In this document: in pieces, positions 5,996 to 21,958 of the stretch
Position numbering within the stretch: the first letter of the stretch is position 1
Layout: every line of letters starts with the position of its first letter
Assembly: GCA_004144175.1 (NCBI GenBank)
Contig: SEFT01000011.1
Coordinates: 119,405 to 160,567 of the forward strand
DNA from: Sphingobacteriales bacterium
Lineage (GTDB): Bacteria; Bacteroidota; Bacteroidia; Chitinophagales; Chitinophagaceae
Length of the DNA: 41,163 bases
Direction of reading: 5' to 3'
Notes under the pieces: model-generated
Database searches by the model: none
Seen by the model: the letters and a program-made list of their open reading frames with translations, nothing else
Told to the model about the DNA's origin: nothing
Position numbers and translations under genes: made by a program

Positions 5996-7834
5996 TTAAT
6001 ATTTTACCAGTTTTTGAGGCGAAGCCAGTATGCCATCTGCCTTCAGGTGCATGTAGTATACACCCGGCATTAATAGCTGAATGTTTACTGCTCTATCTTC
6101 ACCCAGAGCACCCGACTGCACAACCCTGCCCTGCGTATTGGTGATCTCGTAAGTACAGCTATGATTGAAGCTATAATTAAGCTTCACAATGTCGGTAGCA
6201 GGATTCGGGTACAATCCCCAAAGTTCTTCTTTTTTTGGCACTTCCGGTACATCTGAAGCTATGATCCAGCCGATAACGGGACGTATCATAACAGCACCGC
6301 TTACAGCCGAGGGCTCCCAAAAACCACCGACATTAAAATAGGCATGGTTACCCGTGATGCGGTTAGCATCAAGCCCAAAATAGAGGCTATCACTTACGCC
6401 AGATGCCGGCTGTATGGTACCCATGAAGAATGTGCCCTTATCCAATATTACCGGGCTATCGAACTTATAGAAGTAAAAGTGATTGGTATTAAGATACCCG
6501 GGGAAAAGGAAGTTTTGCTGGAAAGCCACTACATCGGGTGCGCCATTCGAACCCAATTCGCGATAAACAGCCACCGAAAAATCTTTGTATCCCGCCATAG
6601 GTACCTGCCTTGCAAAGTATATAGCGACACCCAATAACGTATCCTTGCGGTTGAGGCGATACTCTATTGCCGTCTTGCCAGGGAGCGTAGCACCAAGCTT
6701 CAGGTAATAGCTTTTTTCGGCAGAGCCATCGTCATAGGCCAGGTAGTTCTCAAACTTCTGCTCGCGTACAATAGTGTCGTTCGAAACGGGTTCTCCCGGG
6801 CGGGCTTGAATAAAATACTTATTCTCGAATACCGCACGCTGATACTGACCACCATTAGGTATATTATTAGCGTACGTTGAATAATTGAGTGAAGCCTCTT
6901 GTCTTGGAGCTATACTAATAGGACCGCCGGTTTCGTTTGCCAGCGGCGTACCGGTCAATAGTTCAGTTGCTGTAAAATCATATTGCACGCTAGCCGGACT
7001 GTTCGAGAGGTTATTGATGGAAGCAGCATGAGCAGGAGCCAATTCACCCGACGGGTTTACCATGAACTGGTGATATGGCATGTAAGTATAATCATTCAGT
7101 ATGAAGGTCGGCTCTGAAGAGAAGGCAACATCATTGATCAGTGTGTCATACATGTTTCGACCTGCAGCCATGCGGATGTAGTCTACATTCCATACATCGT
7201 CATTAGTATTAACCGATGCCTTATTGACGAAACGAAACTGAAAATCAGCATGAAAGAAGTCAGGGTTTGTAACCGCCACCATGGCCTGCTTGAAAGGTTG
7301 TAGCTGACTACCCGGTATGGCCCAAACCTTCACCCATGCACCGGTGGTTATCTTACGCTTCATATAAACAATGAGCGAATCAGATGCTTCCGGATAAAAA
7401 CCATTGCCCTGTGGCTGGTAAAAGAAGCTGAGGTAAACGCTATCGGCAGGGCTCAGGGTGCTCAGGTCAATCACCTGCGATGTAAGACTGTCTGCATACA
7501 ACAAGTGAGTGCTGAGGACAGGATCGTAGGGTATGCCGTTCTGGTCGAGCCCGTCAAAAGTAGCTATTCCCCTGCTCACCGGCTTAATACCCATGGTGTT
7601 ATTAACATATACCTGCCTTTCTACCCAGCGGGTTGTATCGGGGTCGTCTTCATAGGTAAAGTCTTCGAAGAAGGGAAGTGTGAGTGCTGTTGTTTTAGCA
7701 TATATCGGCTTAGCAGATACATTCCTTTTGGCGCGCGCAGGGTTATAGCCAAGCGGCGCCAGCATCTCCTGCGAAAATGCAGGCAGACTAAGAAAAAAGC
7801 AAATGATATATATACAACAAATCCTTATCGGCAT
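5996..7834 (-). CDS. Secreted T9SS cargo protein with type A sorting domain
   Basis: A 612-residue extracellular protein. Residues 1-21 are a signal peptide ending near PAFSQ. The large central part is beta-rich (repeated Tyr/Asp/Asn-rich strands, PLSFFYQPQGNG-like segments) and resembles a jelly-roll or adhesin fold, but I cannot name its ligand. The last 75 residues form a type IX secretion C-terminal domain: LWGLYPNPATDIVKLNY, an ITNTQGRVVQSG strand pair, LMPGVYYMHL and a terminal basic-aromatic KLVKY. The gene starts only 4 bp after the PASTA gene stop, so the two are probably co-expressed. Confidence 0.9.
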   Translation of the reverse strand: MPIRICCIYIICFFLSLPAFSQEMLAPLGYNPARAKRNVSAKPIYAKTTALTLPFFEDFTYEDDPDTTRWVERQVYVNNTMGIKPVSRGIATFDGLDQNGIPYDPVLSTHLLYADSLTSQVIDLSTLSPADSVYLSFFYQPQGNGFYPEASDSLIVYMKRKITTGAWVKVWAIPGSQLQPFKQAMVAVTNPDFFHADFQFRFVNKASVNTNDDVWNVDYIRMAAGRNMYDTLINDVAFSSEPTFILNDYTYMPYHQFMVNPSGELAPAHAASINNLSNSPASVQYDFTATELLTGTPLANETGGPISIAPRQEASLNYSTYANNIPNGGQYQRAVFENKYFIQARPGEPVSNDTIVREQKFENYLAYDDGSAEKSYYLKLGATLPGKTAIEYRLNRKDTLLGVAIYFARQVPMAGYKDFSVAVYRELGSNGAPDVVAFQQNFLFPGYLNTNHFYFYKFDSPVILDKGTFFMGTIQPASGVSDSLYFGLDANRITGNHAYFNVGGFWEPSAVSGAVMIRPVIGWIIASDVPEVPKKEELWGLYPNPATDIVKLNYSFNHSCTYEITNTQGRVVQSGALGEDRAVNIQLLMPGVYYMHLKADGILASPQKLVKY

Positions 7835-19230: not shown

Positions 19231-19641
19231 TTATTTGGCAGACCCGGAAGGGACATTTTCTTTCTTAAACCTCTTAGGCGCAGCCAGCAGCATAATGAAC
19301 GGCAGAGGACTATTAAAAAACAGCCTTATATGATGTATCTCGTCCAAAAAGGCTGTACCAAATACCCCGAACTTCCACTGTATAATACCTACCCCAAGAA
19401 TTATAACTAACGCAACTGCATATCCCAGCAGCCAAACCGACTTTATCCACTGCACCGGGTGTTTTGCCCATGCAAAGTAGCCAACGGCACCTACTGCAAG
19501 CAGGAATAGTATATGCGCTACCTTTCTCTTCATCTCCTCTACCCCTACCGACTCCGTAAAAAACTGTAGCTCTATCCAGGACAGCACCACAATGATCAAT
19601 AGCGATATCCAGAGCCTTGCCTTATTTCCCATAAGAGACAT
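19231..19641 (-). CDS. Small exosortase-associated membrane protein
   Basis: A 136-residue protein with four predicted membrane segments (about 12-28, 39-58, 66-89, 107-123) and a short basic tail. Its 5' end overlaps the exosortase gene by 20 bp, so translation is probably coupled. It resembles what I recall being called the XrtX-associated membrane protein in Bacteroidota; this is from memory and unverified. Motifs worth noting are KRKVAHILFLLAVG and FLDEIHHIRLFFNSPLPF, with several His and Arg near the membrane face. Alternative start at Met4. A role as partner or modifier in sorting is inferred only from the coupling. Confidence 0.8.
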   Translation of the reverse strand: MSLMGNKARLWISLLIIVVLSWIELQFFTESVGVEEMKRKVAHILFLLAVGAVGYFAWAKHPVQWIKSVWLLGYAVALVIILGVGIIQWKFGVFGTAFLDEIHHIRLFFNSPLPFIMLLAAPKRFKKENVPSGSAK

Positions 19642-20164
19642 ATTTTTTACTATACCATATCCACAGTCCGAATACTACCGCATAGATTACCAACTTGAAC
19701 ACATAGTGGTGTGCAAAATCGGCGAGGTAGTGATTATTGTAAAACATCACCGCCAGCGCTGAACACCTGAGCACATTCAATCCGTAAATAATGAGGGGGC
19801 CAACTACCGCAAACGCTACCAGCCTCTTTGCATTGGTAGGCAGGCAAAAGAGAAAACCGAGGTACAGCACGATAAGTTCCAGGCCATTGCAGGCCTTAGC
19901 CACGGTGAGCGTCGGTTGCCCGTTTACCCAAATAGTATCGCCCTGAATGGCCAACTGGTCGTACACGAAGGTAAGCGTCTGGAATGTGCCGTCTATCACC
20001 CAATCGATCAGCTGCTTGTCTGGGATGTCTCTCGGCTCCAACACAAAGTAATAGGCAAGACGCCAGCCGACAAATAACAACACAGCCTTTATCAGGAAAC
20101 TCTTAAGCCCCGACGGAAGCTTATTGTATGTATTGGTCAACTCCAGACCCGCTTTTTTGATCAT
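19622..20164 (-). CDS. Exosortase (archaeosortase/exosortase family), copy 1
   Basis: A 180-residue polytopic membrane protein with the exosortase catalytic triad: Cys92 in ACNGLELIVLYLGF, Arg133 in LNVLRCSAL, and His152 or His153 in DFAHHYVFK. The N-terminal block LKSFLIKAVLLFVGWRLAYYF and the DIPDKQLIDWVIDGT segment are shared with the second copy at 20833-21378. Exosortases cleave C-terminal tripartite signals of exported proteins at the membrane. It is the short, single-domain type of Bacteroidota. The likely cargo is the gene 142 bp upstream (20307-20726). I recall this type being called exosortase X, but cannot verify it here. Confidence 0.92.
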   Translation of the reverse strand: MIKKAGLELTNTYNKLPSGLKSFLIKAVLLFVGWRLAYYFVLEPRDIPDKQLIDWVIDGTFQTLTFVYDQLAIQGDTIWVNGQPTLTVAKACNGLELIVLYLGFLFCLPTNAKRLVAFAVVGPLIIYGLNVLRCSALAVMFYNNHYLADFAHHYVFKLVIYAVVFGLWIWYSKKYVSYGK

Positions 20165-20180
20165 CCCACTAATTTAATCG

Positions 20181-20188
20181 CAAAATTA
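20181..20188 (-). promoter_or_regulatory. Candidate -7 element for exosortase copy 1
   Basis: TAATTTTG on the minus strand fits TAnnTTTG, 17 bp before the start codon. No good -33 box at the usual spacing. Confidence 0.3.
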
Positions 20189-20253
20189 CCTATTCGCCAA
20201 GACAATATTTATTAATTATATACTAAATATATCTTGTTTCGTGAAGTATATCT

Positions 20254-20293
20254 ATAACGAAGCGGATCAGTTATCACCAATCCGCCTCGTTAT
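20254..20293 (-). terminator. Hairpin between cargo 1 and exosortase 1
   Basis: ATAACGAAGCGGAT and ATCCGCCTCGTTAT pair over 14 positions with one G-T, around a 12-nt loop, just past the cargo-1 stop. There is no clear T-run, so it may cause partial termination or stabilise the highly expressed cargo message. Confidence 0.6.
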
Positions 20294-20306
20294 AATACAT
20301 CGAAAA

Positions 20307-20726
20307 TTATTTCTGTCCTTCTTTCTTTTTCTTATCAAAAGCTTTTTTAGCGCCGTAGCCCGCGCCCGCTATCAGCAGCAAGCTCAAACCACCGTCAAGC
20401 GGTACGCCTCCACCTGTTCCGCCGCCGCCATTGCCGCTACCGTTTCCATTGCCATTACCGCCACCACCATTGCCACCATCGTGGCCGTAGCCATTGCCAT
20501 TACCATGGCTTGTGTGTCCATTACCGTTGCTTTCGCTACCTGTGTGGCCGCTACCATTATTACCATTGCCATTACCGGTACCATAGTCGCCCTGAGTACC
20601 TTGGTGGCCCTGTCCATTACCGTTTCCAGCGCCATTATCAGCACCATTACCTTGTGCAAACAGAGACCCGGCCGCAATGAACGTAAATGCAGCAGCCACG
20701 AAGAGCGTTCTGGCTATTTGTTTCAT
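20307..20726 (-). CDS. Secreted Gly/Asn/His-rich protein with exosortase sorting tail, copy 1
   Basis: A 139-residue precursor. Residues 1-24 are a signal peptide (cut near LFAQ). The mature part (about 25-108) is almost only Gly, Asn, His, Ser and Asp, built on GNGNG units, with a less repetitive block GQGHQGTQGD...GSGHTGSESNG. The tail is tripartite: PLDGG (109-113), a short hydrophobic stretch LSLLLIAGAGYGA, and a basic end KKAFDKKKK. It matches my memory of the Bacteroidota PID-CTERM signal, with Leu for Ile. It is probably cleaved or anchored by the neighbouring exosortase. Function unknown. Confidence 0.88.
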   Translation of the reverse strand: MKQIARTLFVAAAFTFIAAGSLFAQGNGADNGAGNGNGQGHQGTQGDYGTGNGNGNNGSGHTGSESNGNGHTSHGNGNGYGHDGGNGGGGNGNGNGSGNGGGGTGGGVPLDGGLSLLLIAGAGYGAKKAFDKKKKEGQK

Positions 20727-20756
20727 AAAAACGAGGAATTATAAATGATGGAATTT

Positions 20757-20788
20757 CAAATCTAACACCTGAAATAACTAAATGCAAA
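20757..20788 (-). promoter_or_regulatory. Promoter of cargo 1
   Basis: On the minus strand, TTTG (20785-20788), 20 bp, then TAGATTTG (20757-20764): an exact match to TTTG-N(17-23)-TAnnTTTG. The -7 box is 30 bp before the start codon. Confidence 0.75.
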
Positions 20789-20832
20789 TTATTGCTGCAG
20801 GTTAACAACTCATTATCGTTCCTGGAGGAAAA

Positions 20833-21378
20833 CTAAGAATGACTGCTCGTATTTCCCTTGCAATACCATCCCCACATCAGAAAGGTAAACCCATAAATAA
20901 ACAGCTCGAAAAGCTGATGGTGAGTGAAGCTATGCGGCTGAAAGCCTTTGTAGAAAAGAATAGCCAACAGGAAACAGCGTAGCAGGTTCAGTAGATAGAT
21001 AATTACAGGGGCCCCAACTGCGAAAAGCAGCAGCTTACTCTTGTTCACCGGCAGGCTCAATAAAAAGCCCAGATAAGTCGCCATCATATCGAGGCCATTA
21101 CACTGCTTGTAAACCGTCAGCGCACTACGGCCGTTGATTACAATTGTATCGCCAATACACAATACCTGACCGTAAAAAGGTAAGAGCAATTGGCGGGTGC
21201 CGGCAAGTACCAGGTCTATCAGCTGCTTGTCGGGAAAGTCGGTAGGTTGTAGTATAAAAAAATATGCTACCCGCCAAAGGACGAATAGCATAAATGCTTT
21301 TATTAAAAATCGTTTAAGCTCAGCGGGTATTACATCATAGTATCTTAGTACACCAATTCTGTTACCACCGCGGCTCAT
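20833..21378 (-). CDS. Exosortase (archaeosortase/exosortase family), copy 2
   Basis: A 181-residue polytopic membrane protein with Cys93 in QCNGLDMMATYLGF, Arg134 in LNLLRCFLL, and His153 or His154 in SFTHHQLFE. It aligns end to end with copy 1 (shared LKxFLIKA, LFVxWRxAYxF, DxPDKQLIDxV, RPxLTVxKxCNGL-like blocks) but has diverged at many positions, clearly more than the two cargo proteins have. It starts 13 bp after the stop of cargo 2 and so is probably co-transcribed with it. No associated small membrane gene follows this copy; the 106-bp gap ahead of cargo 1 holds only the cargo-1 promoter. Confidence 0.92.
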   Translation of the reverse strand: MSRGGNRIGVLRYYDVIPAELKRFLIKAFMLFVLWRVAYFFILQPTDFPDKQLIDLVLAGTRQLLLPFYGQVLCIGDTIVINGRSALTVYKQCNGLDMMATYLGFLLSLPVNKSKLLLFAVGAPVIIYLLNLLRCFLLAILFYKGFQPHSFTHHQLFELFIYGFTFLMWGWYCKGNTSSHS

Positions 21379-21391
21379 TCATGTAAAATAC

Positions 21392-21958
21392 TTATTTATT
21401 TTCTTGCTCCTGCGCTTTCTTTTTCTTGTCGAAAGCTTTTTTTGCGCCAAAACCGGCACCTGCTACCAGCAACAGGCTGAGGCCTCCGTCAAGCGGTACA
21501 CCTCCGCCGTTTCCGCCGCCGCCATTATTTCCGCCGTTGCCATTTCCGTTGCCATTATTCCCATTTCCATTGCCACCGCCGTTTCCGTTACCATTTCCAT
21601 TATTACCATTTCCATTACCTCCACCGTTATTGCCGTTGCCACCATTACCACCACTGTGGCCGTAACCATTACCATTACCATGGTCCGTATGTCCAACACC
21701 ATTGCTTTCGCTACCGGTATGGCCGCTTCCGTTGTTACCATTACCATTGCCTGTACCGTCATCGCCCTGTGTACCCTGGTGGCCCTGGCCATTGCCATTA
21801 CCTGCACCATTCGTACTGCTTGAAGACCATGTGCTGCTACCCGAAAAACCGCCGCCGCTATTACCACCCCAGTTATATTGATCAGGGTCGCTTTGCGCAG
21901 TAGCATGTGTCGCACCTGCAAGGCTAAGTAATAGAACAGAATAGAGGATCTTTTTCAT
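21392..21958 (-). CDS. Secreted Gly/Asn/His-rich protein with exosortase sorting tail, copy 2
   Basis: A 188-residue precursor. Signal peptide 1-21 (cut near ATAQS), then a Ser/Trp-containing lead unique to this copy (about 22-49, including YNWGGNSGGGFSGSSTW). From residue 50 it follows copy 1 almost word for word (GNGNGQGHQGTQGD, GSGHTGSESNG, HGNGNGYGH). The GNGNNGNGNG array is longer than in copy 1. The tail PLDGG (155-159), LSLLLVAGAGFGA and KKAFDKKKK is nearly identical to copy 1. It is the first gene of a two-gene unit with exosortase copy 2. Confidence 0.88.
   Translation of the reverse strand: MKKILYSVLLLSLAGATHATAQSDPDQYNWGGNSGGGFSGSSTWSSSSTNGAGNGNGQGHQGTQGDDGTGNGNGNNGSGHTGSESNGVGHTDHGNGNGYGHSGGNGGNGNNGGGNGNGNNGNGNGNGGGNGNGNNGNGNGNGGNNGGGGNGGGVPLDGGLSLLLVAGAGFGAKKAFDKKKKAQEQENK

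Follow-up and report, generated by a model that had tools for sequence, protein, structure and literature searches.

In a 41,163-nt stretch of DNA from Sphingobacteriales bacterium (Chitinophagaceae; contig SEFT01000011.1), hereafter the window, five open reading frames (ORFs) at 19231-21958 on the minus strand encode two small secreted proteins (cargo1 and cargo2), two exosortase-like enzymes (xrt1 and xrt2) and a further membrane protein, P1, in the order cargo2, xrt2, cargo1, xrt1, P1. The tandem duplication is genuine and rare, and the system in which it arose is of a known kind, that of Exosortase X (XrtX) and its PID-CTERM cargos. We consider it probable, with considerable room for doubt, that the duplicated XrtX-like module works on one pool of sorting tails, with P1 as an accessory subunit. 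An initial annotation of this DNA had read the locus as a tandem duplication of a sortase-cargo pair that gives two parallel single-cargo surface systems. The tandem order on one strand and the duplication were borne out by our analysis; the two separate systems were not, given an identity of 92% between the cargo tails but 48% between the enzymes, a third cargo elsewhere in the genome and a single P1. P1 itself is a fifth gene, which lies within the same coordinates and was unmentioned in that annotation.

Both enzymes passed the cut-off of the exosortase superfamily model TIGR04178, as well as that of PF09721 (33.3 bits for xrt1 and 35.3 for xrt2, against 25.7), which places them in the superfamily. 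Their best NCBIfam match was Exosortase X (NF046081). As none of the 22 members of the xrt1/xrt2 clade reached the XrtX cut-off, we name the two enzymes XrtX-like only; they also scored below the cut-off of the XrtF model (60 and 50.6 bits against 90). The intact Cys/Arg/His triads reported initially were found at the residues given: C92, R133, H152 and H153 in xrt1, like their aligned counterparts in xrt2, were invariant in 22 aligned sequences, and Cys, Arg and His were also invariant in a second alignment of 33 sequences, both copies being counted each time. As putative exosortases, both enzymes would cleave and transfer a C-terminal sorting signal. No solved relative of xrt1 was detected by sequence, nor by fold at E ≤ 0.001 (best E 1.6). 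In a search of the bacterium's own genome, the XrtX profile matched only the two window genes at E ≤ 0.001, both on contig 8 of the assembly; since this assembly is 97.6% complete and in 93 contigs, a seemingly missing gene may be an assembly gap. Of the 59 genomes compared, this one among them, 26 had a PID-CTERM protein over the cut-off and 29 had an XrtX-model match with E ≤ 0.001, a threshold that takes in XrtY-like enzymes; 25 genomes had both.

The two cargos likewise passed the cut-off of the PID-CTERM model (NF046080), with the matches lying in their last 35 residues. Neither cargo had a Pfam match at E ≤ 1, and thus neither carried the Por_Secre_tail domain of the type IX secretion system (T9SS). 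The signal peptides are putative, having been called by visual inspection and with a home-made rule. Cargo1 and cargo2 share a Gly/Asn/His-rich block of 57 residues, of which 53 are identical, while 20,000 shuffles gave at most 24 of 57 (ungapped). No match to this block was found in 14 other genomes of the genus, and 393 other genomes of the family yielded only seven weak matches (E 0.016-0.08), four of which contain stops.

The enzymes are 52% identical over 165 residues and formed sister branches with support of 98/94 in an exosortase tree of 49 sequences, drawn from the 29 genomes with a match. The branch lengths in this tree were unequal, at 0.36 for xrt1 and 1.25 for xrt2. In relative-rate counts, xrt2 had changed more than xrt1 against all 20 outgroups, significantly so (P<0.05) against 14, these outgroups being kin to one another and so not independent. 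Of the positions that were conserved in 17 or more of the 20 relatives, eight were altered in xrt2 alone, none in xrt1 alone and one in both; several of the changes confined to xrt2 adjoin the Cys and His motifs, with the triad itself intact. Where the two enzymes have the same amino acid, 30 of 83 codons matched, compared with 29.2 expected. Codon agreement at chance level indicates that the duplication is old, and rules out a recent one. Synonymous divergence (dS) between the enzymes was not computable by YN00 or NG86, which fits saturation.

The survey of one- versus two-copy loci proposed with the initial annotation showed how rare this arrangement is. Among 112 XrtX matches listed at 100 bits or more, in 86 of 394 genomes of the family, the only pair within 3 kb was that of the window; the same was true of the matches listed for 110 of 395 genomes of the phylum. 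Some match at E ≤ 1e-10 was present in 120 of the 394 family genomes, the weaker of these matches being listed only in part. No tandem XrtX arrangement was seen in 32 named loci, and a scan of genome contigs with xrt2 alone found no relative. The family surveys of XrtX and P1 scored eight or nine first-look candidates per genome, so that copies may be missed, and they overlap in genomes with the named loci (e.g., CP075895.1 appears to repeat G003:C1), so that the two are not independent.

To compare tails with enzymes, we used the 26 exosortases, out of 49, with an adjacent cargo recognized by a motif rule (the remaining 23 were left out), giving 325 pairs. The window pair, with a tail identity of 0.92 at an enzyme identity of 0.48, was the largest outlier, ranking first of 325 by residual. 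In the 37 pairs with enzyme identities of 0.45-0.60, tail identity ranged from 0.44 to 0.92 with a median of 0.60, the maximum being the window pair, and the six other pairs from the same genome as one another reached tail identities of only 0.36-0.56. Besides the two window cargos, one more protein of the genome passed the PID-CTERM cut-off. This third cargo is Ser/Thr/Gly-rich, 127 residues long and encoded on contig 47 (G000:C47:110231; L003, 1198-1581), and none of the ORFs of at least 80 residues in the surrounding 3 kb encodes an exosortase. The tail of this cargo is similar (83% over 23 residues). The sorting signal is thus not confined to adjacent cargos, as it would be in a dedicated system. 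Tails scattered far from the enzymes had been named at the outset as the mark of a general system; such scattering exists here on a small scale, in the form of this one orphan. The third cargo also resembles cargo2 in an N-terminal stretch (11 of 13 residues the same), which makes the three cargos look modular.

P1 homologues were present in 74 of the 394 family genomes. Of 80 P1 matches, 76 lay directly downstream of an XrtX gene, equivalent to 76 of the 112 listed XrtX matches, with a profile that was built from P1 genes adjoining XrtX and may favor such genes. P1 was also present in 27 of the 32 named loci, among them those of Mariniflexile and Yeosuana. Chitinophagaceae bacterium LGM1 and IBVUCB1 each have one XrtX-P1-cargo locus and, in addition, an XrtX without a partner. 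It accompanied 26 of the 30 XrtX matches of at least 200 bits, and the remaining four, including xrt2, have a P1 beside another copy in their genome. The present genome has one P1 only. P1 had no Pfam match at E ≤ 1 and no NCBIfam match over the cut-off, the one weak match being MSEP-CTERM (12.4 bits against 150). When 17 P1 relatives were compared with NCBIfam at E ≤ 0.01, two families were matched, each by one member only (E 0.006-0.009). The predicted model of P1 was all helical, with a predicted local distance difference test score (pLDDT) of 90.7; none of the solved folds matched it at E ≤ 0.001 (best E 1.1). Homology with proteins downstream of two XrtX genes in other families (G043, G040) was unsupported (hhalign probability 0.4%). 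P1 looks like a general XrtX partner that is as yet unnamed and, having matched no named family here, would merit one; by analogy, it may be an exosortase subunit.

We propose that a signal peptide would direct the export of each cargo, whose hydrophobic, Lys-rich tail would keep it in the inner membrane. The exosortase, through its Cys-Arg-His triad, would then cut near P-L-D-G-G and hand the cargo to an anchor for display at the surface, with P1, encoded together with xrt1, as an accessory membrane subunit that probably serves both enzymes. The cargo-exosortase pair would have been copied without P1. Because xrt2 subsequently drifted quickly while the tails did not, the two enzymes probably draw on a common pool of tails, to which that of the orphan third cargo would belong. 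A more far-reaching version, which we put forward as possible but rather doubtful, is that an XrtX-like enzyme and P1 form a two-subunit exosortase whose ancestral product was a very short surface-tethered peptide. The present lineage would have lengthened this peptide to a Gly/Asn/His chain, duplicated the cargo-enzyme pair and kept one P1.

Several observations weigh against a shared pool or against the family context in which we place it. The XrtX cut-off of 170 bits was reached by neither enzyme (126.6 and 97.7). The enzymes of the other six same-genome pairs are more distant from each other (0.17-0.46) than those of the window pair (0.48), and tail and enzyme similarity co-varied over the 26 loci; this correlation (Mantel r 0.47, p 0.0002) is in keeping with a degree of specificity within pairs. 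An XrtX match without a partner occurred in 26 family genomes, only 11 of which had a P1 match elsewhere; the sharing of P1 between enzymes is weakly based. Lastly, over the whole cargos, 55 codons matched compared with 44.0 expected (P=0.015), while those of the exosortases matched at chance, and the identity of the tails could stem from gene conversion between the cargos. Conversion following an older duplication would leave tail identity silent on specificity and is compatible with a common pool; we regard it as a possibility to be kept in view, if not the likelier course of events. The dS of the shared block, 0.34 by YN00 or 1.45 by NG86, set beside the seemingly saturated enzymes, speaks in its favor. 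However, the two copies of the block differ at many silent sites: of 54 same-amino-acid codons, 30 agreed (23.8 expected, P=0.053), as did 13 of 28 four-fold codons. Any conversion must therefore be old, with the protein since held by selection, and from these codons the protein sequence of the block does look to be under such constraint.

Two insulated systems, with xrt1 acting only on cargo1 and xrt2 only on cargo2, would agree with the co-variation of tails and exosortases and with the fact that each of the two exosortases has its own adjacent cargo. We nevertheless find such insulation quite improbable in view of the near-identical tails, which stand apart from those of the other same-genome pairs even allowing that the enzymes there are more distant, together with the orphan cargo and the single P1. 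It is somewhat less improbable, yet still unlikely in our estimation, that xrt2, altered or in decay, is losing its function with the triad still in place, leaving xrt1 and P1 to serve all three cargos. The long branch of xrt2, its eight private changes at conserved positions, several of them beside the Cys and His motifs, and its lack of a P1 of its own are all consistent with decay. Against this, xrt2 retains a full-length open frame and an intact triad, and lies only 13 nt from cargo2, as is typical of its relatives (gaps of less than 30 nt in 15 of 26 loci). Moreover, the chance-level codon agreement between the exosortases implies that this frame has long remained open. A shared tail pool thus remains the reading that we favor, and the tandem locus offers a natural test of whether duplicated exosortases divide their substrates between them.

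The cargos of this genome differ from those of its relatives in length. From the signal peptide to P-[ILV]-D-G-G, the mature part measured roughly 15 residues in the median and 53 at most in 31 other distinct cargos, compared with 74 residues in cargo1 (~84 by eye) and 133 in cargo2; the rule is home-made, covers cargos next to XrtX-like as well as XrtY-like genes and places the cut in cargo1 too far along. Among PID-CTERM matches over the cut-off in the 59 genomes, the three longest ORFs (211, 143, and 141 residues) all belong to this genome. The initial suggestion of a hydrated, glycine-rich matrix therefore fits the cargos of this genome at most, and not the system, as the adjacent cargos of relatives are mostly very short. 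Nor is the system one-cargo in general, since of 14 other genomes of the same genus, 13 hold between one and 14 matches to PID-CTERM (E ≤ 0.01) and one holds none. The genome with 14 such matches has six PID-CTERM proteins over the cut-off within ~24 kb (G002:C11:388791-412814). Two tandem PID-CTERM genes, both over the cut-off, precede a single XrtX gene in G034:C61 (L105), and similar pairs precede one XrtX in G002:C7, G005:C41, and G008:C3, with one member of each at 23.3 bits against 26. Hence, cargo duplication without enzyme duplication also occurs.

The features of the locus are collected in Table 1. P1 overlaps xrt1 by 20 nt. The hairpin between cargo1 and xrt1 was very stable, with a z-score of -7.14 and none of 200 shuffles equally stable; no obvious T-run follows its stem. 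The hairpin could keep xrt1 and P1 less expressed than cargo1, or shield the cargo transcript. It is not a general feature of cargo-exosortase gaps, as z was below -4 in only three of 11 gaps of at least 30 nt, that of the window counted. A scan for promoters and terminators showed no excess. The pattern TTTG-N-TANNTTTG, which we take to be promoter-like, had two matches in the window, and 47 of 100 shuffles reached as many. Plus-strand ORFs lying over the cargos (e.g., 20241-20744) were taken as antisense shadows of Gly/Asn-rich genes. The T9SS noted initially is indeed present, in the sense of coexistence only: the genome encodes SprA (2582 bits), and a 612-residue protein of the window (5996-7834, minus strand) carries a T9SS Por_Secre_tail domain.

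Table 1. Features of the duplicated XrtX-like locus, with positions in the window.
Feature	Position	Strand	Description
cargo2	21392..21958	-	188 aa; signal peptide (by eye), Gly/Asn/His-rich region, PID-CTERM tail; NF046080 33.3 bits (cut-off 26)
Gly/Asn/His block common to both cargos, cargo2 copy	21641..21814	-	53/57 identical to cargo1 copy
xrt2	20833..21378	-	181 aa; XrtX-like exosortase, fast-evolving; NF046081 97.7 bits (cut-off 170), TIGR04178 44.6 (cut-off 23)
Promoter-like match TTTG-N-TANNTTTG, weak	20757..20788	-	Upstream of cargo1
cargo1	20307..20726	-	139 aa; signal peptide (by eye), Gly/Asn/His-rich region, PID-CTERM tail; NF046080 36.3 bits (cut-off 26)
Gly/Asn/His block common to both cargos, cargo1 copy	20466..20639	-	
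19-bp RNA hairpin between cargo1 and xrt1	20253..20294	-	Fold of 20165-20306
xrt1	19622..20164	-	180 aa; XrtX-like exosortase, conserved copy; NF046081 126.6 bits (cut-off 170), TIGR04178 49.3 (cut-off 23)
P1	19231..19641	-	136 aa; membrane protein, conserved XrtX partner without named family

Among known systems, that of PEP-CTERM and EpsH shares with the window the conserved Cys, Arg, and His, and one study places the EpsI gene of Methylobacillus directly downstream of that for EpsH (PMC1569441). The tail of PEP-CTERM proteins is described as tripartite in a further study (PMC11980579); the tail motif in the window is P-L-D-G-G. In addition, epsH is nearly always found among exopolysaccharide genes, as the former study states (PMC1569441), whereas in a Pfam scan of 30 proteins of the window we recognized no exopolysaccharide cluster. 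The XrtF system offers an analogy to xrt1 and P1, in that XrtF and its associated protein have consecutive locus numbers (Fjoh_1448 and Fjoh_1449). In Flavobacterium johnsoniae, deletion of xrtF or of the "exosortase F system-associated" gene resulted in much less biofilm and abolished zorbs (PMC10936215). None of the 17 P1 relatives scanned matched an XrtF-associated model at E ≤ 0.01.

Exosortase Y (NF046083) comprises related exosortases in genomes of the same genus, one of which (G007:C9) has a short PID-CTERM cargo adjacent to the enzyme. It nonetheless forms a separate clade of 15 sequences (99/99), none of them from the present genome. In five genomes of the genus (G002, G005, G006, G008, and G012; loci L075, L080, L084, L088, and L094), an exosortase of this second clade lies directly (56-91 nt) upstream of a gene for a protein of 766-767 residues, which in L075 and L084 is PorZ, the T9SS anionic-lipopolysaccharide delivery protein; the exosortases of these two loci had XrtY as their best match, below its cut-off (155.6 and 144.3 bits against 160). 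The adjacency of exosortase and PorZ could hint at an anchor pathway common to exosortase products and T9SS cargos.

A literature search, outside which most subscription papers lie, returned no paper with the term "PID-CTERM", none relevant with "XrtX" and none combining exosortase and Chitinophagaceae; the XrtX and PID-CTERM families are already known, as their NCBIfam names show. Among the systems known, the Exosortase X/PID-CTERM system (NF046081/NF046080) gave the best-matching models, and in relatives, too, the gene for the cargo lies upstream of that for the enzyme. The locus differs from that system in its tandem duplication, its long Gly/Asn/His-rich cargos, and a P1 that has no model of its own. 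A small system with a single enzyme, a single partner, and a cargo of very few residues would provide easy entry to exosortase chemistry.

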